Virus record (IMG/VR): IMGVR_UViG_3300017605_000353
Location: 1 to 45,615 of that record
From: a virus
DNA length: 45,615 nucleotides
Reading direction: 5' to 3' (one strand)
This document shows positions 3,919 through 41,143 of this stretch, piece after piece (positions within the stretch are counted from its first letter, which is position 1; each line of letters starts with the position of its first letter). The notes beneath the pieces were generated by a model, which worked only from the letters and a program-made list of their open reading frames with translations, searched no databases and was not told the origin of the DNA. A program made the translations under genes and the position numbers.

Positions 3919-3945
3919 GGTCATCTTCAGAATCTGAAGCTAACG
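3919..3945. promoter_or_regulatory. 27-bp dyad, copy 1
   Basis: Half-sites GGTCATCTTCA and (reverse complement of TGAAGCTAACG) CGTTAGCTTCA flank a 5-bp spacer. It lies in the divergent intergenic region, just beyond the CGACAGTCGA repeats and 182 bp before the start at 4127. It is one of six copies in the window and the only one in the intergenic hub. Confidence 0.6.
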
Positions 3946-4126
3946 TATTGGCACAGACGCTCTCGTTAGGCACGTGCGTGAAAATTCCACGCACAATGCG
4001 TGGCCAACGCACACTATCCGTCCCGCACGGCGCAATACCAAGCACTTACGTCATGGCACGCCGTGTGCTTACATACTAGCAGTGCTGCGAATACTCCGCA
4101 CCAAGCGGCCAGCACTACAAAAGCCT

Positions 4127-4486
4127 ATGGCCAAAGAAACCAAACTACTCCCGTCCGTGCGCGATGCCCTGCTCCGTGTGCGAGCTCAGCAATCTGTATC
4201 CGCTGGCAAGCCGATGAAAATGGACCAAGCCGCCGTCTGCGCGGCCGTGCGCTACGTGCTGGGCGAGCTCATCACCGAAGCCATCACCGCACACGCGGAC
4301 ACCGGCTCTGACGAGCCGCTTGAATCCTACATCACCGGCGTGCTCAAGGACGGCTGGGCTGATCTCTGTGAATACGGGTTCATCGGCAACGCCTCGCAAT
4401 TCCGCCAAGCTTGCCATGCGCTCCCGGCCACCGATGAACTGTGGCAGCCCAAGGAAACCGCAAAGCCCGCATCGGCCTACGAATAG
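4127..4486 (+). CDS. hypothetical protein, 119 aa; first rightward gene
   Basis: The frame is open from 3974, but I choose ATG 4127 because it carries the AAAAGCCTATG box otherwise seen at leftward early genes; the upstream extension is Arg/Thr-rich and lies in palindromic DNA. The product (MAKETKLLPSVRDALLRVRA) is helical with repeated Ala, for example DQAAVCAAVRYVLGELITEA, and ends in a Lys/Pro/Ala tail. No family is recognised. It stands alone between the regulatory hub and a structured 308-bp gap, so it may be expressed early and separately from the late genes. Confidence 0.6.
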   Translation: MAKETKLLPSVRDALLRVRAQQSVSAGKPMKMDQAAVCAAVRYVLGELITEAITAHADTGSDEPLESYITGVLKDGWADLCEYGFIGNASQFRQACHALPATDELWQPKETAKPASAYE

Positions 4487-4794
4487 GACGGCCCGCTACA
4501 CGGCCCGCGAGCCCTGGGGTTGTAAAGCCCTGGGGCTCAATCGTTTAGACCCCCCGTCGCCTTTATCCAGCCTCGCTTTGCTCGGGGAGACCTCCCCAAG
4601 GCTTGTTTAGCTCCATATTTAGTTATCTGGCCAGTAATTTTCAACTTAAGGTTAATGCCGGCATAGAGGGATACCGGCAAAGAGCATTTGGGACGCTTGC
4701 GGCCCGAGGTGAGCTCCTGTATGGTTAGGGTGTAGCGCGGAATGCCGGGAAGGAGGCATCGCGCTTTTGTTGTTGGGGACTTGAGGATAACATT
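4487..4794 (+). other. structured intergenic region before the packaging genes
   Basis: 308 bp without a credible gene. It contains a repeated ACGGCCCGC, a GAGCCC/GGGCTC stem (4509-4538) built on two copies of AGCCCTGGGG, a compound hairpin AGCCT...GGGGA/TCCCC...AGGCT (4569-4603), an AT-rich stretch (about 4604-4655) that may hold the late promoter, a TGCCGG/CCGGCA stem (4656-4679) and a terminator-like hairpin at 4735-4768. The region may encode a small structured RNA; no tRNA cloverleaf is visible. Confidence 0.5.
4735..4768 (+). terminator. terminator-like hairpin with T tract
   Basis: Stem GCGCG-(GA bulge)-ATGCC pairs with GGCAT-CGCGC around an 8-nt loop and is followed by TTTTGTTGTT. 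This is the best rho-independent terminator shape in the window. It ends 26 bp before the start at 4795, so it would either stop transcripts from upstream or act as an attenuator in the leader of the packaging genes. Confidence 0.5.
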
Positions 4795-4983
4795 ATGAGT
4801 GACCTAGCGAAAGACGGGAAAGAGCAACATAGCGGGATGGCGAAAGGTGGGTTTCCCGAGGGGACACCGCAGTATCCGCCACGGGTCGAGAAGATTTTGC
4901 GGTCTCAGCCGCTGAGTCCCTTGAGCACCGGGGAGCTGAAGGTGGTGAAGGTGAGGAATGAGGTGTCGGTGCAGAATGATTGA
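4795..4983 (+). CDS. hypothetical protein, 62 aa
   Basis: Small hydrophilic product (MSDLAKDGKEQHSGMAKGGF) with a Shine-Dalgarno-like GAGGA 8 bp before ATG. Its stop overlaps the possible TTG start of the small terminase (TTGA at 4980-4983). No domain is recognised. It is the first gene of the late operon. It lacks hydrophobic segments and is probably partly disordered (many Gly/Pro/Lys/Ser). Confidence 0.55.
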   Translation: MSDLAKDGKEQHSGMAKGGFPEGTPQYPPRVEKILRSQPLSPLSTGELKVVKVRNEVSVQND

Positions 4984-4988
4984 GTGAC

Positions 4989-5549
4989 ATGAACACGCAG
5001 CTTTACGAGAATAGCCCGTTGGCCGGCGCGAGTATTGAGGAGGTGGAGAAGTCGAACCCCGATGGGTTTTACAACGCCAAAGACCCCAATCTCGCGATTC
5101 TGCATGAGCGACCGGAGCACCGGATTTGCATCATGTTGAAGGCGAGCGGGAAGTCGAATAACGAGATTGCGGCCATTATCAACTATACGCCGAGCTGGGT
5201 CAGCCAGATTCTCCGGCAGCCGTGGGCGAAGGAGGCGTTGTTACGCGAGCTCAAGAAACTCGGGGGTGACTCCGTGGCTGAGTTGCTGGCCGGGACCGCG
5301 ACCGATAGTGTGTTCAAGCTGATCCAGTTGCGGGACACAGCCGACGACGAAGGCGTGCAGTTACGCGCTAGTCAGGACCTCCTCGATCGTTACCTAGGCA
5401 AAGCAACCCAAAAGGTCGAATCCAACACCAAGGTCACCCATCTCTCAGGTGACGTGGAGAAGGTCGACAAAGAACTCGCCGAGATTGAGTCTCAGCTCCT
5501 CCGCGCGTTACCAACCGCCAGACCCCAGACTATTATAGCGAACAATTAG
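4989..5549 (+). CDS. terminase small subunit (putative)
   Basis: About 186 residues, directly upstream of the large terminase. Residues about 35-80 form a helix-turn-helix of the terminase small-subunit type (LKASGKSNNEIAAIINYTP followed by SWVSQILRQPWAKEAL), expected to bind the pac/cos DNA. A helical C-terminal part (about 85-165, LRASQDLLDRYLG, DKELAEIESQLL) would serve oligomerisation. A TTG at 4980, coupled to the preceding stop, is an alternative start and would add three residues. Assignment rests on position and HTH, not on a signature motif. Confidence 0.75.
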   Translation: MNTQLYENSPLAGASIEEVEKSNPDGFYNAKDPNLAILHERPEHRICIMLKASGKSNNEIAAIINYTPSWVSQILRQPWAKEALLRELKKLGGDSVAELLAGTATDSVFKLIQLRDTADDEGVQLRASQDLLDRYLGKATQKVESNTKVTHLSGDVEKVDKELAEIESQLLRALPTARPQTIIANN

Positions 5550-7384: not shown

Positions 7385-7411
7385 TGTCGCCTTCAATACC
7401 TGAAGATGTCA
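7385..7411. promoter_or_regulatory. 27-bp dyad, copy 2
   Basis: Arms TGTCGCCTTCA and TGAAGATGTCA around ATACC. The final A is the A of the ATG of the next gene, and the element starts four bases after the previous stop (TAA-GCCC). The arms are identical, in inverted orientation, to those at 15896-15922. The 3' arm carries the only SD-like stretch (GAAG) before this start, so an RNA hairpin could hide it. Confidence 0.65.
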
Positions 7412-10236
7412 TGAAAAAGCTGCTTTCTTTATTGTTTACTCTTGCGCCATTACTGCTGAACGCAGCTGTGACCGTAGCACCGTCGTCAGGTGGGGTGAGA
7501 CCCACGAATAGCCCGTTCGAGACCGCGATTATTCAGATCGTGTCGGGTGTGCCGATTTGGACCTCGCCGAGTGGGCTTACGGCGTCGGCGACCAATGCGG
7601 TGCAGTCGATTAATGGTTTGAGTAGCAACGCGCAGTTCATGGTGTTGCTAACCACTGGCTCGTCCTCGAATAATCCGGGAATTACTCCGTTGAACGGTGC
7701 GGGTGGTTCGACGAACTTTTTACACCTTCCGTTTGTTAACGGGACGATTAACGGCTTATTCGCCTCGAACGATTACACGCGGTTTTTACAGTCTCAGACC
7801 GGCGGCCAGGTGTTGTCGAATCTACTTCAAACCAGCATCGTGCAAGGTGCTACGAACGCGTCGTTCTTCCATCAGACGTCGGCGGGTAGGTCTACCAATG
7901 CTACGTTCCTAGGTGAGTTCTTTGCAACGAACGGGAATGTGTATTTCGGGGTTGGGTTTGGTGGGCCGGTTGGGACGTTTACGAATTTCTATACGTCGGC
8001 GTTCAGGGGTACGGTTTATATGATCGACTCTGGGTTGAGTATGAATTTGCAGAACGGGGTGGCGCTGAGGGTAGACAATGGTAGTTCCATTGCCCTTGGT
8101 GTTAACGGTTCCGTAGGTGTGACGCCTAACTGGTTCAACGTAGGCACGAACTCGTTTCTTGTGTCGGGTAATGGCGACGCGGGTGAGTTCTGGCGGTATC
8201 GTTTCATTGGTGATCTTACGCCGAATTATACCAACCTAGTGATGCGTTGGCGGGAGATGTCGAACTACGTGGCTCTCGTGGCGTCGAATGCAGTGAGGGT
8301 AACCGCGGGTGCGAACGTGTCCGTGACGCCGAGCGGCTCTGGCGGAGTGATGTCATTTGCCGTGGCGTCATCCGGGGGTGGGGGCGGGACGCCGACGGGT
8401 ACAATCGATGGTCAAATCCAGTATTACAGCAACGCCCTTTTCCAATCCTCTACTAAGTTGCTTTGGGATGAAACTTCGCAGGCGTTGACGGTTAAGTCTG
8501 TTAACCAGGATAGAGCGGGTTTTATAGCTACGGACCCAGGCTCGGGTGAGACGGCTTACCTAGCTCCTTTGGGTGTCTACAGTAGCAATTCCCTTGGCAC
8601 CGCTATGCGGCTTGTTGCTGGTGGTTATTCATGGGCAACTGGTGTATTACTACACACGAACGGCGATCTTACACCACTTAACGGTGCAGTAGTTTCAGCT
8701 TTAGGTCAGGAAAGCATACCCTGGCGTGGGGCGTGGATTACGAGTGGGACGTTTTATTATCCTACGAACTATGCTACAACTACACCCTCATTTGGTGGTG
8801 TGTCTTTAGGTTTGGGCAGACTGTATCTTGGTGGTGTTAACGACCGCTACTACGTTGATGCGAAGACGAATGTATTGTTGGTGTGGACTAACATGCTTGT
8901 GGATGTCGACTACCAGCTTTTGTTGAATGTTACGAACAATTCAGTGGTTACATGGTCTAACAGCGCTGCGTTGATTTGGCCGGATAACATTCCCGAGACT
9001 ACATTCACTAACGAGGCACTTTACATAGTCCGTAAGCATTCTATTACTGGACGTACGAATGTTTGGCGTGTTGGACAGTTACCACAATCTCTTGGTGCGT
9101 CGGTGCTAGTGCGATCAAACGCTACACCAGGTGGTTATACGCATGTGTATTTTTCAGTCGATGGACAGTCCTTGGTCCGTAACGGCGGTGTGGTAGCGCC
9201 GGGTGCGGTGAACCTAGCGAACGCCAACGCAGTCAGTGGTCAGTTGCCGAAGGCGAACTTGCTTAGCACGGTATCCTACGACGATGAGGTAAATACCTTT
9301 ACGTTGGAGCAGATTCATCAAGGTCCGGTGAACTACGCGTACTCGGATATTTCGGGTACGTCGATTGATTGGGCGTTGTCGTCACGGAGGTCGAAGACGT
9401 TGACTGGGAACGTCACGTTCACGTTTGCGAACCTAGCCGATGGCCGCGAACACTTCGTGCGTATCCTGCAAGACGCCACTGGCACACGGACGGTCACATG
9501 GCCTGGGTCGATTGTATGGGTATCGTCGACGAACCAAGCCGATATCCCGGTGGTTAATACGAACGCTAACCAATACACGTATTACAAGTTCATCCGTGAC
9601 GGTGGCACGATCTTTGGTTGGGTCAGCAGCTCGGATTCTATCGTGCTGGTTGACCTCGCGAATATAACGGGCCTGACGAAGGGGGATGTGTTTGTCTGGG
9701 ACGGCACGCATATCATTCGACTCGCAGCCGGAACGACTGGGCAGGCGTTGTTGGCTAGCTCGAGCGCCGCGTCAGGCCTTGCTTACGTAACGGTGATTAC
9801 AAATGCGCTGAAGGGTTGGAACGCGAACGCGACGGCTAGTGGGGGACAGTTGACGGTGAATGTGACGAACGCCTCGACACTGGTGGCATCGAACGCTACG
9901 ACATCGCAGGCGGACTTTACGCTGACCGAGGATTACATCAGCACGGATGTCATGCGGGCGAACCTCACGATTCAGTTGACGAATCTTGTACCAGGCCGGT
10001 CGATTACGTATTACTTGACGGGTGATACGAACGTGAACGATCGAACGGTTACGGTGGTGACGAACGGAATACCGTCTATCGCGTGTCGGATTCGGTGGAA
10101 TATCTTTAGTCCCACGAACGGGTCCACGAGCTTTACGGTGACGAATAATACGAAAACCGAGCTGTCGCTCAAGTGCGTGCCCGGTGAAGGTGTGAACGAA
10201 ATCTGGGCCGTGTGGTCGCCCTTCCGACGCCAATGA
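7411..10236 (+). CDS. large secreted or tail fibre-like protein with signal peptide
   Basis: A 941-residue protein, Asn/Thr/Ser/Gly-rich throughout, of the kind seen in phage fibres and bacterial surface proteins (repeated TNA/SNA/TNG words and beta-strands). Residues 1-19 form a textbook Sec signal: basic MKK, hydrophobic LLSLLFTLAPLLL, then NAA before VTVAPSS. Virion proteins normally lack such a signal, so it may be exported, or the N-terminus may be a membrane or assembly anchor. A central Gly-rich linker (SSGGGGGTPTG, about residues 318-328) splits the protein. The start abuts the dyad at 7385. The protein overlaps the next gene by ATGA. Confidence 0.7.
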   Translation: MKKLLSLLFTLAPLLLNAAVTVAPSSGGVRPTNSPFETAIIQIVSGVPIWTSPSGLTASATNAVQSINGLSSNAQFMVLLTTGSSSNNPGITPLNGAGGSTNFLHLPFVNGTINGLFASNDYTRFLQSQTGGQVLSNLLQTSIVQGATNASFFHQTSAGRSTNATFLGEFFATNGNVYFGVGFGGPVGTFTNFYTSAFRGTVYMIDSGLSMNLQNGVALRVDNGSSIALGVNGSVGVTPNWFNVGTNSFLVSGNGDAGEFWRYRFIGDLTPNYTNLVMRWREMSNYVALVASNAVRVTAGANVSVTPSGSGGVMSFAVASSGGGGGTPTGTIDGQIQYYSNALFQSSTKLLWDETSQALTVKSVNQDRAGFIATDPGSGETAYLAPLGVYSSNSLGTAMRLVAGGYSWATGVLLHTNGDLTPLNGAVVSALGQESIPWRGAWITSGTFYYPTNYATTTPSFGGVSLGLGRLYLGGVNDRYYVDAKTNVLLVWTNMLVDVDYQLLLNVTNNSVVTWSNSAALIWPDNIPETTFTNEALYIVRKHSITGRTNVWRVGQLPQSLGASVLVRSNATPGGYTHVYFSVDGQSLVRNGGVVAPGAVNLANANAVSGQLPKANLLSTVSYDDEVNTFTLEQIHQGPVNYAYSDISGTSIDWALSSRRSKTLTGNVTFTFANLADGREHFVRILQDATGTRTVTWPGSIVWVSSTNQADIPVVNTNANQYTYYKFIRDGGTIFGWVSSSDSIVLVDLANITGLTKGDVFVWDGTHIIRLAAGTTGQALLASSSAASGLAYVTVITNALKGWNANATASGGQLTVNVTNASTLVASNATTSQADFTLTEDYISTDVMRANLTIQLTNLVPGRSITYYLTGDTNVNDRTVTVVTNGIPSIACRIRWNIFSPTNGSTSFTVTNNTKTELSLKCVPGEGVNEIWAVWSPFRRQ

Positions 10237-15895: not shown

Positions 15896-15922
15896 TGACA
15901 TCTTCATATTCTGAAGGCGACA
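15896..15922. promoter_or_regulatory. 27-bp dyad, copy 3
   Basis: TGACATCTTCA and TGAAGGCGACA around TATTC. It is the exact reverse complement of copy 2 in both arms; only the spacer differs. It starts four bases after the TAA of the preceding gene (TAA-TCCC) and ends one base before the portal ATG at 15924. GAAGG in its 3' arm is also the SD of the portal gene. Confidence 0.65.
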
Positions 15923-25517: not shown

Positions 25518-26725
25518 ACGAACGGTTTTTACAATGCCTGGTTGTGGCCAAGGCCCTTGTCGACTCGTATAAAGAACCCATGATGGAAGGGGTCGTGGGG
25601 TTTGACGTCGGTGGGTCGGATAGTAGTGGGAATACGAGGTTCACGCGTGAAGGCACGAGCCAGACGCAGAAGGACTACACGCTACCGAATGATTTGTCGT
25701 CGATTTTGCAGTTGCTGTATCAATCGGGACAGATCTCGCCCACTACCTCGTCGAATGAGCTGAATTTGTTGAATCAGATGCTGACCAGGTCGACCACGAG
25801 TCTACCCGGACTGGCGTCTTTGCAGTCGATACAGGGGATTGACCCGACGAGCTTTACTGGCCAGAGCTCGTTGAACAACATGGCGGAACGTAATCCGTAT
25901 TCGTCCGATTATGAGTCGGCTGTGGGTGCGTTGTATGATCGGTCGTTTGCCAAGGGTCGGGCAATGGCACAGAGCGGGCCGACGAATGTAAGGGGAGGGA
26001 CAGCGCGACAAGGGTTTGAGATGGCGGAGTTGTCTGGAGATCAGGCACGGAATAAGTTTCGTGAGGTTCGTGGACAGCAGGATAAGGAAGCCGGCGTGGT
26101 GCAGGGTGCCGTGCAGTTGATGAATACGATTGAGTCCATGCGGAGAGGGAGTCAGATGCAGGCGCAGCAACAGAATATGGCTGGAGAGACCGCGAGGTCC
26201 GGCCAGTCGTTGCAGGCTGCTGGGGGTGTGAACGATTTGCGGCGGGCCAATGCGTCGACCGTGGGGCTGGCTGGCGAGATGTTGGGAAAACCACGACAGG
26301 TCACAACGGACAATCTCCGTGGCCGTGGGTCACAAAGCGCGTCCTCCTCGAACTGGGGTGCTGGCCTCACCTGTTGCTTTATCTTTGCCGAGGGACTCAA
26401 TGGACGGCTCCCTTGGTACGTTAGGCGGGGTCGAGATGACTTCAACACCCCGCTCAGACGCCTTGGGTATCTGCTCATGGCGTCGTGGCTGGTGCCTTTG
26501 ATGGCTAGGTCGCCTTCAGTTTCTGAAGCTGTCAATCGGCTCATGATTCGGCCGTTTTTGATAGTCGGTCGTTGGTGGTATGAGAATCGGAAAGGTTGGA
26601 AAGGACCAGTGCTAAAACCTTGGTGCTGGGCGTGGTTCTGGACGTGGTCATTAATTGGTTTCACATATGGCAAACTTCTTCGAAAGACTGTCGTACCCAC
26701 AGTACGAACAAAATGGGAGATTTAA
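25514..26725 (+). CDS. virion-associated protein with C-terminal CCF-type module of unknown function
   Basis: 403 residues. Residues 1-270 are Gln/Ser/Asn/Arg-rich and helical (SSDYESAVGALYDRSFAKGR, DKEAGVVQGAVQLMNTIESM), like internal or injected virion proteins. Residues about 285-395 form a different module: Cys287-Cys288-F-I-F, RLPWYVRRGRD, LLMASWLVPLMAR, and four Trp in the last helix (CWAWFWTW). I recall similar Cys-Cys/Trp modules at the C-terminus of uncultured phage proteins but know no assigned function. A 27-bp dyad lies inside the coding sequence (26508-26534). The next gene starts 59 bp before its stop. Confidence 0.65.
   Translation: MNERFLQCLVVAKALVDSYKEPMMEGVVGFDVGGSDSSGNTRFTREGTSQTQKDYTLPNDLSSILQLLYQSGQISPTTSSNELNLLNQMLTRSTTSLPGLASLQSIQGIDPTSFTGQSSLNNMAERNPYSSDYESAVGALYDRSFAKGRAMAQSGPTNVRGGTARQGFEMAELSGDQARNKFREVRGQQDKEAGVVQGAVQLMNTIESMRRGSQMQAQQQNMAGETARSGQSLQAAGGVNDLRRANASTVGLAGEMLGKPRQVTTDNLRGRGSQSASSSNWGAGLTCCFIFAEGLNGRLPWYVRRGRDDFNTPLRRLGYLLMASWLVPLMARSPSVSEAVNRLMIRPFLIVGRWWYENRKGWKGPVLKPWCWAWFWTWSLIGFTYGKLLRKTVVPTVRTKWEI
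26508..26534. promoter_or_regulatory. 27-bp dyad, copy 4 (inside a gene)
   Basis: GGTCGCCTTCA and TGAAGCTGTCA around GTTTC. It is the only copy within a coding sequence (codons 332-340 of the gene at 25514) and lies 133 bp upstream of the start at 26667. In copies 2 and 3 the same arms appear with minor differences, so this copy is probably real and not a chance palindrome. Confidence 0.55.
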
Positions 26726-28019: not shown

Positions 28020-31000
28020 ATGCCAGACCCAGCATTGAGCTACCAGAACATTCTCGATGCCTACCGTATCGGGAAGGTGCATCACCCGGAGACTTTCGAC
28101 GGGATGGATGTGCAGCAGTTTTCACAGTATATGAATCGGTCGTTGGGGACTGATGCGTATAGGACTGGAGATGTGGGTAAACTCGGGACATCGTTGTTGT
28201 ATGCGGATTTGGGGTTGGAGGATGTTTTGGGGCCGACGAAGGAGAAGACCAAGGCTTTTGGCGGGGACGTTGGGGCGATGTTTGGAGATACGGGACGAAG
28301 GATCGGTGAGTCGGTGGGGGAGAGTCTGCCCCGAGCCGGTGTTGACGTGGGTCTTTTGCTAGGTGGTGCGGCTGCTGGTGGCGTCCCGGGACTGGTATTA
28401 GGAGGCGCTGGGGTTGGTAGTGCGGCAACACGAACCTACTCCGAAACCGGGAGTGGACCAGCCGCAGCAGTTACAGCCGCGACTACCGCAGCCGCACCTT
28501 TCGTCGGACGGTGGGCGGGTGGCCAAGCGGTTAAGTACCTCACGCCCCAACTCGAGAAATACATCGGCACCTCGTTGCCGCGTATAACCGAAGGTCTTAC
28601 ACGAGAAGCAGGTGAGCAGACGGGCCTGTTTGGACTGACGCAAGCTTCGCGTCAGGCAGGCAGCCTGGTCCAAGGACAGGGGCTAACTCCACTAACACCA
28701 GAATCCCTTGGCTCCGACATTGCGTTTAACCTACCCTTTTTGCCGTTGTCGGTCCCCCGACTGGCGAGAGGGACTCGTGTAGACTACCCGGCTGAAGGGC
28801 GTCCGAATGTCCAGCCTGCTGGGTTTGGCGATTTGTTTCGTTCCAAACCGGGTAGTCAGTATTTTAATAGAGAGTCGGAGGCGATGGCTGCTGCGTCGGG
28901 AACGCCGGCGGTGAACGCAGTGCAGGATTTCATCGCACAGGGTCCGAAGCAACAGCCACAACCCACCGCTGACCCATTCGCCGGGCCGAGGGTCGAACTC
29001 CCAGCTCCAGTTGCACCAGCAGCTCAACGGGGCGTGCCACCCGGTCCGATTAAATTACAGGAGTCGGTAAAGGTGCCTACAGACCCAGCGGCTACGCTCC
29101 GTGCACAGGTCGAGGCGCAGTTGAATGCGTTCGACGAGAGTGTGTATGACACTAGCGCACCAGGAGCGTCGAATGTCGACAGTGTGAAGGCTGCGCAGGA
29201 GTTGGTTGGGAAGGCTCGTTTCAACGCAGGAGTGCGTGCTTTTAACAAGGCCGTGGACCCCAAGAATGAGTTTGCTACTGAGCACGTGGTTAATATGTTC
29301 GCGCGGCTCGTTAATGGCGAGTCCGACATCCCGAATCAGTTTCTACCCAACAAGAACACTCCCAAACGTGTCAACGCCGGGAGTCGTGAAATGGCCGACT
29401 CTCTAGCGGAAGGCATCAAAACACAAGGTCTCGAACCCCAGGTCAAACTCAATGAAAAAACCGGTCAATACGAAGTTACGTGGGACGAACCTAGCGGATT
29501 CAGCCCTAAAAAGGTTGAAGGAGTCGGACCCGCTTCTGACAAGGTCGTTAAGGAAGAGGTTACGAAGCTTAGCCAACAAGGTGCTGGCACTGCGCAGGTC
29601 GCTAGAGCGGCTAAGCAACTCGAAGCCACCCCGATGTTGCCGGGAGAAACGTTACCGGACGCAGTGGCACGGGAGACGGGATTGACCGAGGCGTTGAAAC
29701 CGGAGGCTGATCCGGTGCAACATTTCCTTGGCGTGTATAAGTTTTTTGACACCTTGTTTACGAAGCGGGGTTTAGAGGGTCCACATAAGGAGTATCTCAC
29801 CCGTGTCGCTATGGACATGGCTTCACGGTTTTCCAAGGTGTCGGGGAATACCAAGCTGGCGATGGTTATGCAGGGGCCTTCGTTCCACGCGCCGGCGGCC
29901 GACCCGAAGTGGGCGAGCATCATCGGTCTGGCGAAGAAAGGTATCCCTAACCAAGCCGCAGACAATCTTCGGGTGTTGTGGGACTTTGGACATGAGATGG
30001 CTCACGAGTTGCAGATGCAGACCAGTGCAGGAGTGGCAAAGGCCAGCCCGTCGCACGGCGCGTATCTGAACGCGATGCAAACTGCGGCCACGATGTCGAC
30101 CGCTGATAAAGCCCTAGTCCTCAACACCTTGATTAAGCACGCGTTGCCGCATGTGGCGGGGGATTTTGACTATAAAGCACAGGTCTATGAAAAGAACCCA
30201 ACACCCGAAGCCGAATCAGCCGAGTTTCTGGCCGATTATCTTGGTCTGGTTACGCTTGGAGCATCTAGTAAGTCGTCGTGGAATGACTTCAAGGATTACT
30301 TCAAGTTCTCGTCGCCGGAAACGATAGATTTTATCGATTCTTATGTCAAGGATATCTCGTCCAGTTTCGACGCCTACAAGGAGCTGCTTAGTCAGGAATC
30401 GAAGACAAAGGTCGATGTCAACCACGATACCTTACTCAAGAATGTCGACGAGATTCAAGGTCATCTCAAGACGGTCTTGGACCACGCTGGTGAGGTGAAG
30501 TTGGCGGAGACCACGATGCGGGCAGTTATCGACCGAATTGCGTCGAGCCCGTTGGACGAACCCCCGGTAGCGTCGTATGCGCAGGTTAAGAAGCTGTTTA
30601 AGGCCCTTGGGATACCGGAACAACAGATTCAGAAGGCGGACTTGCCGGATGAACGGGTCGTGATGGACGAAGCGGAGCGGTCCGCGTTGCCGACGAATAA
30701 GGACGAGGTTGGTGGGTTCCGTGGTAAGTGGTGGAACCGCTGGCTGCCGATGACACAGTTTGCACGGCTGGTTGGGAAGGAGTGGTACAAACAAGGGGTG
30801 AAGTCGGTGCAAGACGCACCGGGGATTGCCTCGAAGTTGTCGTATCAGATGTGGCAACCCTGGACGGATAAGAACGGTAAGTGGGATGCGAAGAGGGTTG
30901 AACGTTTGGGTGACACCAAGAAACCGATTGGCAAAGCGTTTACGGAGTTGAGGCTTTTCCAACAGGCCGAGCGTAAGAGCTGGTCGAATGAGGACGTGAA

Positions 31001-33797: not shown

Positions 33798-34947
33798 CGA
33801 GGCGTTTGACACCGTTTACCATTTGTTCGAGTTTGACGATTTGGTCGGTGCTTTCGAGGTGTCGCATTACGCCCATTACTTCGTCAGGACGCATGTCGCG
33901 CGACGCTACCAAACGGAATTCTTTGTCCGGCACCCAGCCACCCCTGGACTCTACCCAGGCTAGGAGTCGTTGGGTTGGTTCAGCGAGAACATTGCGGCCG
34001 ATGCCTCGATAGAGTTTCATCATCCCCGGTTCGATACGTTGAAGGAGGGCTAACGCCATTTGCATGGAGTCCAGGTGGAGTATCATGTCCGCGTAGTCAC
34101 ACATGGAGAGTAACATGGCGATTTTGACCATGATTACGTGTTTGGACGAGAAGTACGCCTCCATGAAACGGTCTTCGATGTTTGGGTTGTGCGCCATATA
34201 CCACGAATCGTAGAACTCCGCGGCTGAGTCCTCCCATCGCATGGGTCCTACTAGGTCGGCGACCTGCTTGAGGCGGGCTACTACGCGTTGCTTAGCCTTC
34301 GCACCTTCGGGAGTGAGGAAGGGACGAGGGATGTTGCAGCGCTTACGTTCTTCGTAAATCATGATGTTCCGTCGGGCGAAACCACCAGAGATGATGTCGC
34401 CGCGGAGTTTATTCATGACCCACTCGCCGGTGGCGCAACCCAGGATCGTGATGTAGGGATTGGGGATTAGGTCTTGGCCGGTGTTTTTGTAGTCCGCGTC
34501 GATGAATTTCGAGTCATAGATATCGGTAAGGAAGTCGATCATGGCGATTTGGTTAACGCCAAGGAAGTGAGCCAGCTCGTTGATGAAGAAGGTAAGCGGG
34601 CGGACTTCGACACCGATTTTGTTCTCGTCTTGGAACGCTCGCAGACACTCGTCACTAGCGAGCCGTTTCATGAGTTGCTGAGGGGAGGTTACAGACGGGC
34701 CGATAGGTGCAGCTGGGAAGAATTCGACGAAGATGTCACGGAAGATGTCTTTGGTTGTGGTTTTGCGGTTCCCGGATGGACCGATAAGACTGGTGTAGAG
34801 GTTCGTGTAGATACGTTGCTGATTCCAGTCGGTATATACCTTACGCTCTACAACAGCCCCAGCGGTTGCTAACGCAGCGAATATGAGGAAGTTCTCTGGA
34901 CATTCGTTCCCCCGGTTAAATTCCAAAACGTCCGCGAGATAGGGCAT
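33688..34947 (-). CDS. P-loop ATPase, DUF3987-like replication helicase/primase-associated protein
   Basis: 419 residues starting MPYLADVLEFNRGNECPENF. A Walker A-like loop GPSGNRKT lies at residues 56-63, followed by TTKDIFRDIF. The pattern (N-terminal ATPase core, region with TILGCATGEWVMNKL and GGFARRNIMIYEERKRC) resembles DUF3987-type phage proteins, which act in replication. The last 36 residues are a Ser/Pro/Thr-rich tail that overlaps the opposing giant virion gene. The start is preceded by a 27-bp dyad (34949-34975). No separate primase or DnaB-like gene is visible, so this may be the replicative helicase. Confidence 0.65.
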   Translation of the reverse strand: MPYLADVLEFNRGNECPENFLIFAALATAGAVVERKVYTDWNQQRIYTNLYTSLIGPSGNRKTTTKDIFRDIFVEFFPAAPIGPSVTSPQQLMKRLASDECLRAFQDENKIGVEVRPLTFFINELAHFLGVNQIAMIDFLTDIYDSKFIDADYKNTGQDLIPNPYITILGCATGEWVMNKLRGDIISGGFARRNIMIYEERKRCNIPRPFLTPEGAKAKQRVVARLKQVADLVGPMRWEDSAAEFYDSWYMAHNPNIEDRFMEAYFSSKHVIMVKIAMLLSMCDYADMILHLDSMQMALALLQRIEPGMMKLYRGIGRNVLAEPTQRLLAWVESRGGWVPDKEFRLVASRDMRPDEVMGVMRHLESTDQIVKLEQMVNGVKRLVIALKSAVPSLTAPKPVDPSASSPSGTSTSPPPQSS

Positions 34948-34948
34948 A

Positions 34949-34975
34949 GGTTAGCTTAAGTTTCTGAAGATGTCG
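34949..34975. promoter_or_regulatory. 27-bp dyad, copy 5
   Basis: GGTTAGCTTAA and TGAAGATGTCG around GTTTC. On the minus strand it ends one base before the ATG of the DUF3987-like gene (34947-34945) and overlaps the 3' end of the DUF1937 gene (stop at 34956-34958). One arm (GTTAGCTT) matches the outer arm of copy 1 at 3919. Confidence 0.6.
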
Positions 34976-35315
34976 GGATAAGGAGGGTGGTGGGGTCGAC
35001 GTAGGTAATGTCGATGCCGGCTTTGACGGCGAATTCTAGTTCGGCTTTGACACCGACGGATTGTTGGTAACCCTCAAGACACAGGATGTGGAACTCCGAG
35101 GCGTGACGGAGCATGGCTAGGTCGGCTTTTAGCCAGTAAGACCATTCACGTGGAAGCTCGTGTCGGATAGCGATGGGATGGTTATGGACAATCGGGCTGT
35201 AGACGATCTTGCCTTTGTTAATGTAGTGGGCACACGCAGCGACCACGGCTTCAAACCGTTGTTCCATGATAGCCGAATCCAGATGCGTGTATGGTGATGC
35301 GAGGTAGATAATCAT
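34956..35315 (-). CDS. DUF1937-like nucleotide-processing protein
   Basis: 119 residues starting MIIYLASPYTHLDSAIMEQR. The core YLASPY..H, a PIVHNHPIA motif, REWSYWLKADLAML and GVKAELEFAVKAG match the DUF1937 group, which has a nucleoside 2-deoxyribosyltransferase-like fold and is common in phages. It may act on modified nucleotides or nucleotide pools. It overlaps the polymerase gene (ATGA). The 3' end lies within a dyad. Substrate is unknown. Confidence 0.7.
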   Translation of the reverse strand: MIIYLASPYTHLDSAIMEQRFEAVVAACAHYINKGKIVYSPIVHNHPIAIRHELPREWSYWLKADLAMLRHASEFHILCLEGYQQSVGVKAELEFAVKAGIDITYVDPTTLLIPTSSET

Positions 35316-37930
35316 ATGTTGTGTATCTGTTCACCCCACGAAGGGCCGTAGTGACCCTCGAAGGGGATGACTATACGTTGACCTGCGATTACAAGCGGGT
35401 TATTAAACCAGGATTTAATCTTACCAACTGACCAATCGGTGTGAGTCTTGGGAAACTGACCGCAGAGCGCGTCGTGGACTTGGTGTAGTGGCTCAGCGCG
35501 GAGCAGGACGCGACCGCGAGAATCTGTGTAACGATTATCGGGATCAGTCCACAAGCGCCAAGCTGCGAGATTAGTGGCGTAGGTGGTGTTTGCCTGTGGT
35601 TCATACGCGAGCGCAGCTCCAAGTATCTCGTCACGTCTGCCGAAGAAGACGCGTCGGTGACCGGAGGCGGCGGTGAGGGTTGGGGATGATGCGAGTCTTC
35701 GTGCGGTTGCTTCATGCCAGCGTTTGTATTTGTATCGTAGACCAAAGAGGTTTTGTAGTTCCTCGGTCTGCGAGGGTTTGAGGTCGACTGCTCCGTCAGA
35801 TTCTTCGAAGATTTGTTTAGCGAGGAGGATTTTCCCCATTAGGTAGCAGGTGCCGTGTTGACCTATTTTGCACGCGAAGTAGTCCCAGTCTTCTTTGCGG
35901 ACCTCCTTGCAGGCTTCTGCGACCTCTTCGCGGGGGCAGTTCGGGTTGAGATACTTGGTTTTACCCCTAAGTCCAAGGCAGAGTACTTTAGCAGGTTTGA
36001 TTCCCGCGTAAAGATCTTCCAACATAGTTGTATCTCCAAGTAACGCCATATGAGCTGCAACTGTCCACCCGTCAGCTCCAGCCAGGTCACACTGGAAGAA
36101 CTCGAAACCCTCATCGGCGCGGAATAGGCGGCGAAACTCGGCCGGTATAGTTTGCAGGTTATATCCAGATCCTGTGGGTGAGGTATAACATGAGAGCCGT
36201 CCAGTGTCGGTCCCAACGATATTGTAACCGCACCGCACTCGCCCGTCTGGATCTTCACGGATTTCAAGCATCCCGATCTGAGTGCCGAGACGACGAATTT
36301 GAATACATAGGTGGACTGCGGTGTGGCCAAGAGAGGATGGGTTAGCCTTTTTGCGCAGTCTAAGAAGTGCACCCTCGTCAGTGGTAACGGCACCTTCTTT
36401 TCCGGTTTGGATTGGCATTTTGAGCGTGTCATAGAGGTAGGAGGCTAGTTGTTTGGGTGATTCGACATTGAGGTGTTTTTCGAGCTTGGTTGAGAGTTCG
36501 CCTATGGTATGGACGGTTAGGGTTTCTTTGAGGATTTCGATGACGCGAGCGTGGTCAGACTCGTAGGGTTTTTTGATTAGGTTGGGGTTACGTTTGTAAC
36601 ACATCACCTCACGGCGCGCTTCGTGGATGGCGTCGACGGAGAGGCCGTTTACGCCAAAGCCGGTGGCGGAGTCAAGGTCGTGCTGGTGACTATACATTTC
36701 TTGACGCAGCTTGGTCTGGATTTCCTTGGCTCCCCGCATGTCGTAGCGGATGCCGCGCAGTTCCATGTAGAGGAGCGGGTTGAGGAGGGCCACGTTGAGC
36801 CGGTAGTGGTCCATTGAAGGTTTGCAGGCACGGAGTTTTGGCTCCAGCTTGTCATTGATCTCGTGCGTAACCGCGCTGTCCTTTCCACAATAGATGAGAT
36901 GCGTCTCGTGGTTATCCGACTTCCGCTCGAACTTGTAATACGGCTCGTCGGTGTAGATGCTGGCCTGGACGTCCAATGCCTTCTCCAACTCACAATACAA
37001 CTCCCAGTGTTTCAGCATCGTGTCATCCACCACGTTCCGTACGACAATCCTATGTCCGTACTGCAATACGAATCGGTCATACAGGCTATTCTGTAGACAC
37101 TTCGGGACGTTCGGGTCGGACAGCAACCTAGCGGTTGCGGACCAGACGTCGATCTCGTCTTGCTCGTTCTCGAAGTAATTCCCTCCACCTTTGGAGAAGG
37201 GGATAACATACGCGTAGCTTGGTGAATTTGCGACGGAGTAACATGACATGTTATGGACGTAGCCTTCTATGTCCATGGTTATTAATTTACGGTCGGCCCG
37301 TGTTTGATCCAACAAGGCTACCATTTCAGCCGCGGTCTTGGGCAAGTAGATCTCGCGTTGGGGTAGCCTTAGTTCCGGGTAGTCCGCCTCGCGTCTGGCC
37401 TTCTTTAGGTCAAACTGTAACATCGGGGCAAACTCGTACATACGCAGCACGGCTGCGGGGTGATAGGAACCCATGCACTTACGGCCGAATAGTGGGGACT
37501 CCATTGCGGACGGAGTCAGGACGGTCCCACGCCAGGTCGAGACGGAATGGCGGAACCCGGTCTTGCCGGGTTTGAGAGGATGGACGGTGACTGGGTCCTT
37601 GGCGACTTTGAAGGCCGTGTTGCCTAGAAGGAGCGTGAGGTTTGGGTTGAAGAACGCTATGTCGTTTTTGAGGCGTTCGAGACTTTCCACAATCTCAGGT
37701 CCGTCCCAGGCGAACTCCACGATTTCGTTACTCGGAGGTCGGTAGTTGCATACGTTACCGAAGAACACGCCGGCAGGGTCGATACCGGCCCGGGACATAA
37801 GGGCTTTGAGAAACCGTCCGCTGGCACCCATGAATGGTTGACCGACTTGTTCCTCGTCTCGACCGGGGGCTTCCCCAATCACCGCGAGTTTGTATGGGAC
37901 TTGAACGGAGGGGAATTTATTGGGGGTCAT
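35312..37930 (-). CDS. uracil-DNA glycosylase - DNA polymerase I fusion
   Basis: 872 residues. I start at ATG 37930 because GGAGG stands just before it, not at 37942. N-terminal domain (1-190): family 4/5-like UDG with GEAPGRDEE at 19-27 and SYHPAA near 160; I see no clear Fe-S Cys set. The 3'-5' exonuclease follows (D220-x-E222; NSLYDRF; YCGKDSAV). Polymerase motifs: A around D615 (CDLAGADGW), B with K688 (KIGQHGTCYLMG), C with H819-D820-A821 (VHDA, where VHDE is usual). It is the replicative polymerase, linked to uracil sensing or removal. Confidence 0.85.
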   Translation of the reverse strand: MTPNKFPSVQVPYKLAVIGEAPGRDEEQVGQPFMGASGRFLKALMSRAGIDPAGVFFGNVCNYRPPSNEIVEFAWDGPEIVESLERLKNDIAFFNPNLTLLLGNTAFKVAKDPVTVHPLKPGKTGFRHSVSTWRGTVLTPSAMESPLFGRKCMGSYHPAAVLRMYEFAPMLQFDLKKARREADYPELRLPQREIYLPKTAAEMVALLDQTRADRKLITMDIEGYVHNMSCYSVANSPSYAYVIPFSKGGGNYFENEQDEIDVWSATARLLSDPNVPKCLQNSLYDRFVLQYGHRIVVRNVVDDTMLKHWELYCELEKALDVQASIYTDEPYYKFERKSDNHETHLIYCGKDSAVTHEINDKLEPKLRACKPSMDHYRLNVALLNPLLYMELRGIRYDMRGAKEIQTKLRQEMYSHQHDLDSATGFGVNGLSVDAIHEARREVMCYKRNPNLIKKPYESDHARVIEILKETLTVHTIGELSTKLEKHLNVESPKQLASYLYDTLKMPIQTGKEGAVTTDEGALLRLRKKANPSSLGHTAVHLCIQIRRLGTQIGMLEIREDPDGRVRCGYNIVGTDTGRLSCYTSPTGSGYNLQTIPAEFRRLFRADEGFEFFQCDLAGADGWTVAAHMALLGDTTMLEDLYAGIKPAKVLCLGLRGKTKYLNPNCPREEVAEACKEVRKEDWDYFACKIGQHGTCYLMGKILLAKQIFEESDGAVDLKPSQTEELQNLFGLRYKYKRWHEATARRLASSPTLTAASGHRRVFFGRRDEILGAALAYEPQANTTYATNLAAWRLWTDPDNRYTDSRGRVLLRAEPLHQVHDALCGQFPKTHTDWSVGKIKSWFNNPLVIAGQRIVIPFEGHYGPSWGEQIHNI

Positions 37931-38276
37931 ACACCTCCGCAATTTCTCCGAAGTGTTGGACTACGATAGGTAAGTGTCTGCGCAGAACGACCTTCAACGA
38001 TGCGTCCTCACATTGTTCAGTTCGCTTTGCCAGTCTTGCGAGGATAAGTAACAAGTGTGTCGCTATATAGAGTTGATCGCGTAGGAGGTCTTGTGACGAT
38101 GCGGTTGTTATGGGCGTGGATACCGTGGGCGACGGCTCCCCGATCCCTATTAACGAATCTACCAATCTCTCGTGTTGAGAAACCGGCGTGGTAGAGACTG
38201 GCGTAGAGGGCTTGTCTTGCGGTGGCGATTGACTCGGTCCGGGACGGAGATAGGATTTCGGTTGCGGGGATTCCAT
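37917..38276 (-). CDS. overlapping ORF before the polymerase, 119 aa
   Basis: An ORF (start MESPQPKSYLRPGPSQSP) whose first 260 bp lie inside the DnaA-like gene in another frame. The unique 3' part encodes a well-behaved helical segment (LYIATHLLLILARLAKRTEQ, VVLRRHLPIVVQHFGEIAEV) that ends 14 bp inside the polymerase start. The N-terminal half is Pro/Ser/Thr-rich and could be out-of-frame translation. Either the true start is further downstream or the two genes truly overlap. The function is unknown. Confidence 0.4.
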   Translation of the reverse strand: MESPQPKSYLRPGPSQSPPQDKPSTPVSTTPVSQHERLVDSLIGIGEPSPTVSTPITTASSQDLLRDQLYIATHLLLILARLAKRTEQCEDASLKVVLRRHLPIVVQHFGEIAEVYDPQ

Positions 38277-38567: not shown

Positions 38568-39345
38568 AGAGGCTGATTCGGTTGTCTTCATAGAACCCTT
38601 TTGCGGTCTGCCCGATGCCTTTTAACTTATGGAGTTGGTTGATGTTGTCGAGAACGGTTTTGTGTAGTTCGAGGAAAGGGATTTTTTTGCCAGGGGGAAG
38701 GAGTTTGGTCATGATGCGAGCGAACGAAACGGAGTTCACGTGGTCAAAACAGTCCAATTCGTATGCACCGAATTCGGTCCCGCCGATACGATGGTAGGCG
38801 AGACTCATGGTTTCGTGGTAGAGCGGTTTGCCTTTGTAGTAGGTCAGACAGGGGAAGATTGGGCAGGTGTTGAAGTAATCCTTGGTCCATTTCTCGTAAG
38901 CGGCACGGGGTCCGCCGTAGCTCAATTCCTCGACTAGCTCTGATCCCGACCGCACGTAAAGCAAGCTCGTGTGGAGCCGCTCGAAGGTGAATGAGTCGGA
39001 CCAAGGGGATTTGAACGATGGGATGAGGTCGCCGGTTAGGATCGAATGCAGGTTGAAGTCCTCCATTTGTTTATGAAAGATCACATCGCCGTCGACAAGG
39101 ACAAGGGGCTCGTCGTTACGCGTGTTTTCAACCAGGATGTTTTGCAAGACCTGGGGATGGGAACCGTTATCACGTGAGACCATAGCTTCCAGCGCGTCGA
39201 TTTCACGACGGTGGGGCATGTAGCCTTGGTTACCGACGATCATGAGCGTAGCGTTGGGGAAACCGATACGAATGGTTTTTAACGTTAGCTCACACAGCTC
39301 TCGTTCGTGTTGGACGGGGGCAGTGATGATGACGTAGACTTTCAT
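38536..39345 (-). CDS. glycosyltransferase-like protein (GT-A type)
   Basis: 269 residues; I start at ATG 39345 (MKVYVIITAPVQHERELCEL), which gives an ATGA overlap with the methyltransferase gene. The first 90 residues have the GT-A look: a short strand VYVIITAP, LMIVGNQG, and LVLVDGDVIF with the DGD acidic motif (D85-G86-D87) for metal and sugar nucleotide. The rest is an acceptor domain with aromatic residues (YHETMSLAYHRIGGTEFGAY). Next to a ParB-methyltransferase it might add sugars to modified bases; it may instead act on a surface glycan. Family not certain. Confidence 0.6.
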   Translation of the reverse strand: MKVYVIITAPVQHERELCELTLKTIRIGFPNATLMIVGNQGYMPHRREIDALEAMVSRDNGSHPQVLQNILVENTRNDEPLVLVDGDVIFHKQMEDFNLHSILTGDLIPSFKSPWSDSFTFERLHTSLLYVRSGSELVEELSYGGPRAAYEKWTKDYFNTCPIFPCLTYYKGKPLYHETMSLAYHRIGGTEFGAYELDCFDHVNSVSFARIMTKLLPPGKKIPFLELHKTVLDNINQLHKLKGIGQTAKGFYEDNRISLYDYLHSSPTQ

Positions 39346-40760
39346 ATATACGTAGGTTTTCTGAACATGATATCGCACTTTCGTTTGAGCTCCGAAAGCA
39401 TGGTGTTGTAGTGGATTTCCTCTAACTCAATACCGATGGGACGTCGGCTAGTGGAGAGTACGGACATAGGGCATGAGCCCTCACCTGCAAAGGGGTCGAG
39501 GATAGACTGGCCGGTGATGGACACGGCTCGGATAATGAAGTCCCAGGCTTCCATTGGTTTCGCGAAGGGGTTCGAGATGTAACCGGCGGAAGGACAAGCC
39601 ACGATACTGGAGCGTTGGGGGGTTACGAGGGTGGCACCTTTCTTTCGACATACCATAGCCATCTCGTAGTCTTTGGTGAAATTGTAGGCCGCGGTTTGGT
39701 TGATGCATTTGCCGACCTTTTCGGCATCGTGCTTCGCGACCTTTTTCCAGATAAGTGGCCAGCGTTGGACGGCGAAACCGGTTTGGACCGCGAGGTCATG
39801 GAGCCAACCCCAGTTCATTACGTCGCACCAGAAGACTACGAAGGAGCGGTCTTTGGTTACGCGGAAGGCTTCGGGTAGGAACATGCGGAGGAGTTTGCGG
39901 TTGCCTTCTTCGTCGTGCGTGTCACGGATACGTTCGAGGTCGACCATGCCGGCGTTGGGGTTTTGTTGGTTCAGCATCTCGACGTTGATAGCGTAGGGAG
40001 GGTCGGTGATGATGTGGTCAACATGACCGTCGGGGAAGGAGGACATGATTTCGAGACAGTTCCCGTGGATGGCCATGTCACTAAGACGGATCTCGATACC
40101 ACCTCGGGTGTCGGGAACGGGTTCTACGTCGATGGAGTCAGTGGGTTTCGTCTCGATGATTTGAACTCCCGGGACCACGAGTGTGGCCTTGGCGGTTGAC
40201 CTCGGTTCGGAGGCCATCTTTGCGTCTAGCGCGAGGGACTTCCTGACCTCGTCTTCTTTGCGGATTGCTAACCACCGTAAGGCATCCGAGAACGACGTAC
40301 AGGCCCACATGGCCGAGCCTTGGTTTGCTAACTCGCGGGCTACCTTCAACGTGTAACTGATATTCGCCGCCGACACACCCAGCCACTGACCCGTTTGTTC
40401 TCGCGTCCAGTTCCGGCCTTCAGCAGCCTCTTCGTTAGCGCGAAGCCGATGGACTTTTGCAATGCCGAGGACCTGCTCTTGCCAGGTCATCTCCTTTCTC
40501 CGCAAGTTCTCCTCCATTTCGAGCATAGTTAGCTGCTGCTCGGTCATGGACTCGCGGAAATAGACAGGGACTTCGGTAAGTCCCAGGGCTTTGCAAGCCG
40601 TTAAACGCCGGCCTCCCGCGATCAGACGGTTGTGGGCATCGACAACGAGCGGCTGGATAATGCCGAAACGTTTAATCGATTCCTTGAGCTCGTCTATGTC
40701 GCCGAGGTCTTTACGTTGACGGTCTTCGACAAGTATTAGGTCAATGGCTAGGGTGTGCAT
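39342..40760 (-). CDS. ParB-like nuclease/DNA-binding domain fused to DNA methyltransferase
   Basis: 472 residues. Residues 1-115 are ParB/Srx-like (DIDELKESIKRFGIIQPLVV, LIAGGRRLTACKALGLTEVP) and a helical HTH-like part follows (REQTGQWLGVSAANISYTLK). The C-terminal half is a beta-class methyltransferase: DPPY at 253-256 (motif IV) before DPFAGEGS at 422-429 (motif I). DPPY points to adenine N6 or cytosine N4 methylation. ParB-methyltransferase fusions occur in phages. It probably protects phage DNA from restriction; the target site is unknown. Confidence 0.85.
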   Translation of the reverse strand: MHTLAIDLILVEDRQRKDLGDIDELKESIKRFGIIQPLVVDAHNRLIAGGRRLTACKALGLTEVPVYFRESMTEQQLTMLEMEENLRRKEMTWQEQVLGIAKVHRLRANEEAAEGRNWTREQTGQWLGVSAANISYTLKVARELANQGSAMWACTSFSDALRWLAIRKEDEVRKSLALDAKMASEPRSTAKATLVVPGVQIIETKPTDSIDVEPVPDTRGGIEIRLSDMAIHGNCLEIMSSFPDGHVDHIITDPPYAINVEMLNQQNPNAGMVDLERIRDTHDEEGNRKLLRMFLPEAFRVTKDRSFVVFWCDVMNWGWLHDLAVQTGFAVQRWPLIWKKVAKHDAEKVGKCINQTAAYNFTKDYEMAMVCRKKGATLVTPQRSSIVACPSAGYISNPFAKPMEAWDFIIRAVSITGQSILDPFAGEGSCPMSVLSTSRRPIGIELEEIHYNTMLSELKRKCDIMFRKPTYI

Positions 40761-40764
40761 GGTG

Positions 40765-41115
40765 CTAACTAAGGGGCCAGCGGTTCGTACGGAGTTGGAT
40801 GGCGATGCAGGCGTAGTTGGCTATATCCTGCAAGGTATCGTGGATGGATTCGTTTTTGGGTTTGGCGGCGCGTTTACCCTGTGTCGAGACGGCACGCATG
40901 AGCGTCTTAAGCCGTTCGAACTTATCATTCATACGAACCACCACACCGAACTCACCAAACCCGGCGATGTTGTGCGGCCCGTAGTCTTGTTGCTTCTTGT
41001 CCATCAGGATGGCGTTCTCGATGCAGACTTCAAGGAACAGCCGTGCGTGGTCGGTTTTCAGCTCCAGCAACTCGGCCGTGTCCTTGGCTATGTTGCTAAT
41101 CATACTTTGATCCAT
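40765..41115 (-). CDS. DUF1599-like (nucleotide-modification-associated) protein
   Basis: 116 residues. The core (ILMDKKQQDYGPHNIAGFGE, VVVRMNDKFERLKTL, NESIHDTLQDIANYACIAIQ) matches the DUF1599/MazG-like group found in phages beside nucleotide-modification genes. MazG-type proteins hydrolyse nucleoside triphosphates, so a role in nucleotide pools or base modification is possible. On the minus strand its ATG follows the 27-bp dyad by one base; the gene upstream ends in a UUCG hairpin, so it may begin a new transcription unit. Confidence 0.7.
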   Translation of the reverse strand: MDQSMISNIAKDTAELLELKTDHARLFLEVCIENAILMDKKQQDYGPHNIAGFGEFGVVVRMNDKFERLKTLMRAVSTQGKRAAKPKNESIHDTLQDIANYACIAIQLRTNRWPLS

Positions 41116-41116
41116 A

Positions 41117-41143
41117 TGTCATCTTGAGAGTCTGAAGATGACC
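41117..41143. promoter_or_regulatory. 27-bp dyad, copy 6
   Basis: TGTCATCTTGA and TGAAGATGACC around GAGTC (one arm has G for C). On the minus strand it ends one base before the ATG of the DUF1599-like gene. A UUCG hairpin (41145-41160) is directly on its upstream side, so the order is terminator, dyad, start codon. Confidence 0.65.

Follow-up and report, generated by a model that had tools for sequence, protein, structure and literature searches.

The virus record IMGVR_UViG_3300017605_000353, an uncultured phage whose 45,615 nucleotides were analysed whole and are called the window here, carries repeated copies of a 27-bp dyad, and the question that they raise is what reads them. A sequence-only reading had listed six copies (3919, 7385, 15896, 26508, 34949 and 41117) and offered them as operators controlling a regulon of start codons, as promoters for near-leaderless transcripts, or as hairpins acting in translation. 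All six are present at these positions, and a seventh, at 2992, had been overlooked.

Dyad copies in the window

2992..3018, dyad 1, GGTTAGCTTCACACTCTGAAGCTGACG, within ORF 2630-3169(-), whose N-terminal part, where the dyad lies, is poorly conserved
3919..3945, dyad 2, GGTCATCTTCAGAATCTGAAGCTAACG, in non-coding DNA
7385..7411, dyad 3, TGTCGCCTTCAATACCTGAAGATGTCA, its final base being the A of the ATG of ORF 7411-10236
15896..15922, dyad 4, TGACATCTTCATATTCTGAAGGCGACA, with the portal ATG (15924) 1 nt further on
26508..26534, dyad 5, GGTCGCCTTCAGTTTCTGAAGCTGTCA, within ORF 25514-26725
34949..34975, dyad 6, GGTTAGCTTAAGTTTCTGAAGATGTCG, 1 nt off the start of the primase-like gene 33688-34947(-)
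41117..41143, dyad 7, TGTCATCTTGAGAGTCTGAAGATGACC, 1 nt off the ATG of the DUF1599-like gene 40765-41115(-)
41145..41160, minus strand, GGGGGC-UUCG-GCCCCC hairpin read from the sequence, just upstream of dyad 7 on that strand

Five of the seven dyads (2992, 3919, 7385, 15896 and 26508) contain an exact CTTCA-N5-TGAAG core, and those at 34949 and 41117 depart from it by one mismatch. Thirty dinucleotide-preserving shuffles produced no exact core and a mean of 0.83 cores with at most one mismatch; by chance, no exact core is expected. A matrix trained on the window scored the true dyads at 29-38 bits, compared with about 8 for the next best place.

Several details of the earlier description hold. 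Four dyads adjoin an ATG, sharing their last A with it at 7411 and separated from it by a 1-nt gap at 15924, 34947(-) and 41115(-); the gene starting at 15924 is identified as portal by a Pfam SU10_portal match. TAA-nCCC stands ahead of two of these four dyads, an SD-like AAGG lies inside the 3' arm of the 15896 copy, and a UUCG hairpin, with no T-run, does stand upstream of the dyad at 41117. A TATG straight after the dyad recurs in the window. What had escaped notice is that the copies at 2992 and 26508 lie inside ORFs, that the one at 3919 is non-coding, and that the pattern is genome-wide.

Most relatives carry a dyad family of their own

Searching relatives for the exact core of the window returned no matches. 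Unbiased searches revealed that most relatives, including every member of one examined set and most of those found by polymerase profile, own a separate family of 27-bp dyads with 3-11 copies each. The pattern is usually NGT....ACN, in which a phage-specific core sits between an invariant outer GT...AC. The sequence-only reading would have been undermined by absence of the dyad at the same junctions in close relatives: the exact sequence is indeed absent, but a 27-bp dyad of different sequence often occupies the same junction, so that the architecture is retained.

Copies occur about every 5-7 kb along the genome and are spaced more evenly than expected by chance (CV 0.43 versus 0.81 under random placement). 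They are found at gene junctions of any kind, including starts, stops, convergent ends and domain linkers. Of 185 family sites, 19% are no more than 3 nt from a start codon and 41% no more than 3 nt from either a start or a stop; 10 fall between convergent genes and 53 inside ORFs.

Desulfofustis phage LS06 has nine near-perfect dyads together with ParB (EM 339, shuffle maximum 83) and Microcystis phage Mel-JY34 has five with ParB (EM 153, shuffle maximum 82), although the raw EM score alone is no proof because over many spacings the ParB-less Tiera, vir526 and Kuura also exceed their shuffles, through coding repeats. In the more distant ParB phages Gordonia DirtyBoi, Variovorax VarioGold, ctMlz233, Sazerac and Yong-DA the dyad search gave codon-periodic noise or nothing; ctLwi270 possibly has an A-tract dyad set with an even centre.

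A ParB-methyltransferase is the probable reader of the dyads

Only three proteins are universal in the 19 near-complete dyad genomes: UDG-PolA, an exonuclease and a ParB-methyltransferase fusion. The fusion alone has a recognised sequence-specific DNA-binding domain.

39342..40760, minus strand, candidate binder with a ParB_N CTPase-type domain, a ParB-type HTH and an N6/N4 DNA methyltransferase

The ParB_N domain (aa 14-86; Pfam PF02195, 3.7e-11) is followed by HTH helices at about aa 93-184, a disordered linker (185-219) and the methyltransferase (about aa 225-470). PDB sequence matches are to ParB/Noc/Spo0J (4e-11 to 1e-4), and the Box I/II residues G49, R52 and E81 are invariant, with R88 nearly so. 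In the AF2 model (pLDDT 82) helices 93-184 form a ParB-type HTH, and Foldseek matched the N-terminal side to Noc (7nfu, over 190 columns) and to the Noc-NBS complex (7ol9). The ParB C-terminal dimerisation domain is absent; in its place is a CcrM/HpyAVI-like methyltransferase (Pfam, and Foldseek to CcrM). In the window it retains the catalytic DPPY and the SAM motif PFAGEG (FxGxG). About one member in four has lost the catalytic motif, so methylation cannot account for everything that the fusion does. The ParA ATPase (PF13614) was found in none of 16 dyad genomes, compared with 14 of 14 control rings, and the dyads are spread genome-wide instead of clustering, as parS sites do, at a single place close to parAB or the origin.

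Dyads and the ParB gene co-occur. The named relatives without ParB (Kuura, Tiera and vir526) have no such dyads, and the four contigs with dyads but no ParB gene (G002, G006, G013 and G019) look incomplete. No convincing dyads were found in the ParB-bearing G028/G035, G033 and VS-ABTNL-3. The HTH also diverges faster than the ParB domain (mean identity 26% versus 41/37%). A shared HTH rightly predicted dyads of the G045 type in G039, G041, G043, G034 and G032, genomes that are also close overall; prediction failed for G016 from G015, where a different set of four dyads is possible, and for G033 from G038.

The dyads co-diversify across the lineage. In pairs of matched relatedness, similarity of the cores can be predicted from that of the ParB-methyltransferase (partial -0.45, p 0.02), a co-divergence that is not ParB-specific, as the exonuclease (-0.64) and F10 (-0.58), a family that the window lacks, score just as well. 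Mantel and broader partial tests did not single out the HTH as binder; since all proteins share phylogenetic signal, the Mantel and partial Mantel tests are uninformative on this point.

Taking these observations together, we propose, at a probability of roughly two in three, that the dyads are parS/OB-like loading sites of a solitary phage ParB-methyltransferase clamp. The match between protein and DNA is the part that we infer.

Alternative readings of the dyads

The dyads could instead be operators of an immunity- or timing-type regulator, at which the same or another phage protein, once bound, blocks or modulates RNA polymerase at operon boundaries in the manner of stoperator- or KorB-like silencing. 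This is rather unlikely, and would merge partly with the clamp proposal if ParB is the binder. The strong preference for gene junctions, with some for starts, fits it, as does specificity that diverges rapidly between relatives, as in immunity systems; moreover, silencing from 12 dispersed sites is known for the ParB relative KorB (PMC11790492). Against it stand the location of 10 sites between convergent gene pairs and of 53 within ORFs, the even spacing, and the lack of a promoter element at fixed distance. No integrated relative was found in 84,980 bacterial genomes, and the related LS06 phage set is predicted to be strictly lytic (PMC10370329). The earlier operator suggestion survives in part: a DNA-binding protein encoded by the phage most likely recognises the dyads as DNA, but with only 19% of family sites at start codons they do not define a start-codon regulon.

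That another phage protein reads the dyads is improbable. Candidates are the small-terminase-like HTH protein 4989-5549, which would imply packaging or processing, and the exonuclease 42940-43938, for which the dyads would be Chi-like sites. They occur in 17/18 and 18/18 dyad genomes, respectively, and the exonuclease co-diverges with the core. However, in the exonuclease no sequence-specific DNA-binding domain is recognisable, and the small-terminase family, not found in all dyad genomes, does not co-diverge with the core (partial +0.16). The HTH protein at 43853, named earlier as a possible binder, has no homologue in any relative.

Phage promoters for near-leaderless transcripts, of the N4-like hairpin or another phage-polymerase type, are very unlikely. 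Some dyads do lie just ahead of operons, and the recurrent TATG would suit such a role, but sites also occur between convergent genes and deep inside genes, and 94 intergenic sites yielded no flanking consensus beyond the 27 bp and no -10/-35 at fixed distance. The 1,925-aa virion-like protein was considered as a virion RNA polymerase and rejected, since it matched no RNA polymerase in Pfam or the PDB.

That the dyads work as RNA, folding into junction hairpins with a role in translation or RNA processing, is scarcely credible: the 2992 and 41117 copies fold (-13.6 and -9.4 kcal/mol) and several adjoin start codons, but the primase copy (34949) gave no fold, sites also lie between convergent genes, and the arms pair less than permuted arms do (0.456 versus 0.527 at variable positions; 500/500 permutations higher), so a hairpin is not the conserved feature. 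Non-complementary arms and the absence of a flanking promoter together favour a protein-binding DNA site.

A proposed clamp-loading model and its implications

If the ParB-methyltransferase is that protein, its dimer would use the HTH to read both half-sites. If it behaves like ParB and KorB, it might then close into a nucleotide-dependent clamp and slide off the dyad along the DNA, and with one dyad per 5-7 kb such clamps could spread over the entire genome. Where the methylase motif is intact, as in most members, they would carry the methyltransferase over phage DNA; where it has decayed, they would still coat, organise or silence that DNA. A fuller picture, which we offer tentatively as the less likely case, is that this lineage, whose one named example with a predicted lifestyle was called strictly lytic, loads the clamp at private, evenly spaced parS-like sites so that early in infection every part of the genome becomes methylated or shielded. 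As the HTH changes, the code would be rewritten in concert at 5-11 places, and each species would mark its own DNA only.

The dyads are candidate DNA substrates for phage ParB-methyltransferase fusions, which a 2025 catalogue lists without a known role (PMC12704722). With dozens of phage-specific candidate sites, including those of the named phages LS06 and Mel-JY34, the function of the fusion becomes approachable by simple binding, sliding and methylation experiments. The dyad families would also provide naturally matched ParB-type HTHs and sites in which to follow the evolution of DNA specificity, and a case of many scattered sites switching code together.

Comparison with known systems

The stoperators of Cluster A mycobacteriophages are many dispersed, 13-bp asymmetric repressor sites in short intergenic gaps of temperate phages, and their specificity varies between these phages. 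The dyads are likewise dispersed and differ in specificity between phages, but they are palindromic and 27 bp long, and no repressor or integrase was identified in the dyad phage. The SAS/ESAS repeats of Cluster K mycobacteriophages also stand at the starts of a gene subset, with inverted repeats in ESAS and unknown function; SAS, however, is 13 bp, asymmetric and tied to translation starts, whereas the dyads occur at any junction or inside genes and have a phage-specific core (PMC3203893).

ParABS systems (chromosomal and plasmid ParB-parS; Noc-NBS) share the CTPase-type domain with Box I/II, the ParB-type HTH and several palindromic sites per genome. The phage system differs in lacking ParA, in having a methyltransferase in place of the C-terminal dimerisation domain, and in its 27-bp sites with an odd centre and outer GT/AC, distributed evenly over the whole genome. 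To the knowledge of the authors of a 2023 paper, ParB alone had not been seen in any characterised phage (PMC10286716). In KorB-OB of plasmid RK2, a ParB relative acting as a CTPase sliding clamp likewise has about a dozen promoter-near and distal sites on one replicon, OB being a 16-bp silencer element (PMC11790492). The phage differs in that its protein is fused to a methylase, its sites are evenly spaced and some of them lie between convergent genes; no KorA-like partner was identified in it.

A further comparison is with the phage-enriched ParB-N6/N4 methyltransferase fusions of the PNAS 2025 survey, which gives their function as unknown and found that some ParB folds bind ATP or GTP rather than CTP (PMC12704722). 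These have the same domain pairing as gene 39342-40760; the available text describes no DNA sites for them, whereas here the fusion is accompanied by a genome-wide, cognate-like set.

Dyads in the window and its relatives

The window spans an entire IMG/VR virus record. Its products include an SU10-type portal and capsid, a polymerase in which UDG is fused to PolA, a primase of the DUF3987 type, an exonuclease and an annealing protein resembling Sak4. The features discussed here are as follows.

2992-3018, 3919, 7385, 15896, 26508, 34949, 41117: 27-bp dyads
28020-33797 (+): 1,925-aa virion-like protein; sole match is to the C-terminal portion of phrog_11358 (function unknown, 3,431 aa), with no Pfam and no significant PDB matches
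35312-37942 (-): N-terminal uracil-DNA glycosylase domain fused to DNA polymerase A
39342-40760 (-): ParB-MTase, candidate dyad binder

The sequence-only reading had described six dyads, four of them touching a start codon; all six positions and all four contacts were correct, and the dyad at 2992-3018 is a seventh. The core CTTCA-N5-TGAAG is exact in five of the seven and has one mismatch in two, while the shuffled window gave 0 exact cores and 0.83 matches at ≤1 mismatch. A matrix trained on these dyads scored them at 29–38 bits, and the rest of the window at no more than about 8.

The window polymerase is encoded at 37–55% identity on 12 virus contigs, and on 60 by profile search. The exact window core was absent from all 12 first relatives. 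An unbiased scan for gapped palindromes that recur within a genome then returned, in each of 11 of the 12, another 27-bp dyad family with 3–11 copies, and no family in shuffled sequence. Adding whole records brought the dyad-bearing genomes to 30, including the window, followed by G031, five further G045-type records, G027, Microcystis phage Mel-JY34 and, weakly, G016 (G numbers denote related genomes or contigs). Nearly all families share the 27-bp length, and outer bases G2-T3 and A25-C26 are conserved at 87–94% per position (94 intergenic sites), with G015, G030 (partly), the G045 type and G027 deviating. Most sets separate sharply from background; separation is weaker in G022, G038 and the G045 type. 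Across three orthologous dyads of G024 and G026, 42/42 core bases are identical versus 788/900 in the flanks. A central A/T swap is the sole difference over 27 bp in the pairs 34128/10732 and 38525/15220.

Examples of dyads in relatives
G001: AGTATTGTCCA-N5-TGGACAATACT
G005: NGTTAGATTCACANTGTGAATCTAACN
G023-G026: NGTNNNNGTCATTWAATGACNNNNACN

Dyads in named phages (27 bp)
Desulfofustis phage LS06-2018-MD01 (L176, OP947158): 243, 2245, 7682, 15468, 23053, 29964, 37107, 41275, 42971; near-perfect
Microcystis phage Mel-JY34 (L046, PP438425): 1679, 9142, 16385, 25812, 35381; weaker

The nine LS06 dyads, of type TGCTATGTCCCAAATTGGGACATAGCA, form the cleanest set found, and LS06 is the best named genome for experiments. 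In Mel-JY34, dyad 9142-9168 fills the interval separating two annotated genes; dyad 16385-16411 begins directly after the polymerase stop and extends into the primase start. Phage ctLwi270 (L182, MW202554), whose ParB is more divergent, has a possible even-centred A-tract set, CAAAAnGCAAAATTTTGCnTTTTG, at 9837, 17579, 29547, 36094 and 44123. Palindromic units of the form ATTAAT...GTTAAT make up a short array at 23231-23404 in G031; they are spaced at 42 bp in part and are distinct from the dyads of that phage.

One replication module, with dyads, is joined to two morphogenesis modules, SU10-like F6/F7/F14 versus F21-F25/F64 (F numbers denote protein families). G001, G003, G004, G005, G008, G013, G014, G018, G020 and G040 fall on one side of this split, and the window, G007, G024 and others on the other. 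In several relatives, G008/L012, G005 and G040 among them, two ORFs were called across the polymerase region.

Placement and nature of the site

Among 185 non-redundant sites, a start or stop codon lies within 3 nt in 41% (random 5.8%) and within 30 nt in 61% (random 14%). Abutment to a start codon is not the rule: a start lies within 3 nt in only 19%, single start codons being uncertain because the ORF caller was home-made. Ten sites are flanked by convergent genes, and 53 fall within ORFs. Despite differing dyad sequence, the same junctions recur, namely the portal start, the giant virion gene start, the PolA/primase junction, the position before DUF1599 and the start of a small-terminase-like gene. 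In nine genomes a dyad lies within the ParB-MTase gene itself, about 570–693 nt from its start, roughly at the disordered HTH-methylase linker (residues 185–219, AF2 model). Sites are spaced more evenly than under random placement (mean CV 0.43 vs 0.81). We infer that dyads are placed where they disturb least, and that spacing matters rather than gene identity.

An RNA or cruciform hairpin would require the two arms of a site to agree with each other at variable positions. The hairpin proposal fails here: arms matched at 0.456 within sites versus 0.527 across sites of the same genome, with 500/500 permutations higher, and the primase dyad copy gave no RNA fold. A near-leaderless promoter is disfavoured by the lack of any other conserved element within 30 bp on either side. 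The pattern is consistent with a protein dimer that recognises two half-sites, each near consensus yet non-identical.

A ParB-type candidate binder

Three families are universal in 19 near-complete dyad genomes: the polymerase, the exonuclease and the product of gene 39342-40760. The latter is a ParB-type protein. It contains PF02195 and PF01555, and matches solved ParB, Noc and Spo0J in sequence. In its AF2 model (pLDDT 82), Foldseek aligned the N-terminal half with Noc and ParB, the Noc-NBS DNA complex among them, and the C-terminal half with CcrM-like methylases. In the pocket, G49, R52 and E81 do not vary, and R88 is nearly invariant.

ParB-MTase and dyads are both present in LS06 and Mel-JY34, and both absent from Kuura, Tiera and vir526, which share the polymerase/primase layout. 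Overall, 32 genomes had both, 5 ParB only, none dyads only and 3 neither (Fisher p about 0.006, only indicative because the genomes are non-independent and truncated contigs were excluded; the table was filled by hand).

Mean pairwise identity is 26% for the HTH versus 41% and 37% for the ParB domain halves. In relatedness-matched pairs, ParB-MTase similarity predicted core similarity (partial -0.45, p 0.02), as did the exonuclease and F10; the polymerase, primase, F4 and small terminase did not. Global Mantel tests did not discriminate among proteins. HTH similarity and core similarity go together for G005/G008, G003/G018, G004/G040 and the G045 group, with G015/G042 an exception. Domain logic and co-occurrence therefore argue strongly for the proposed link between ParB-MTase and the dyads, and co-divergence argues for it moderately.

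Proposed function and relation to known systems

By analogy with ParB and KorB (PMC11790492, PMC12704722), ParB-MTase would load at dyads and then slide; with one site per 5–7 kb, such clamps could span 45 kb. Where the methylase is intact, they could deliver methylation. G005, G008, G009, G015, G038 and G042 lack the methylase catalytic motif and keep dyads; if the binder assignment is right, a methylation-free clamp function must therefore also exist. Prophage partition is less likely as a role, since no integrated relative was found in 84,980 genomes and the LS06 phage set is predicted to be strictly lytic (PMC10370329).

ParA was absent from all 16 genomes searched. As the partner and site layout that define ParABS were both looked for in the dyad phages and neither was found, we do not assign the dyads to a ParABS system. 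No earlier report of such a site set was found in the open-licence literature, and phage ParB-N6/N4 fusions are an already known class without assigned function (PMC12704722); we therefore file the dyad set and ParB-MTase as a variant of the ParB/parS kind.
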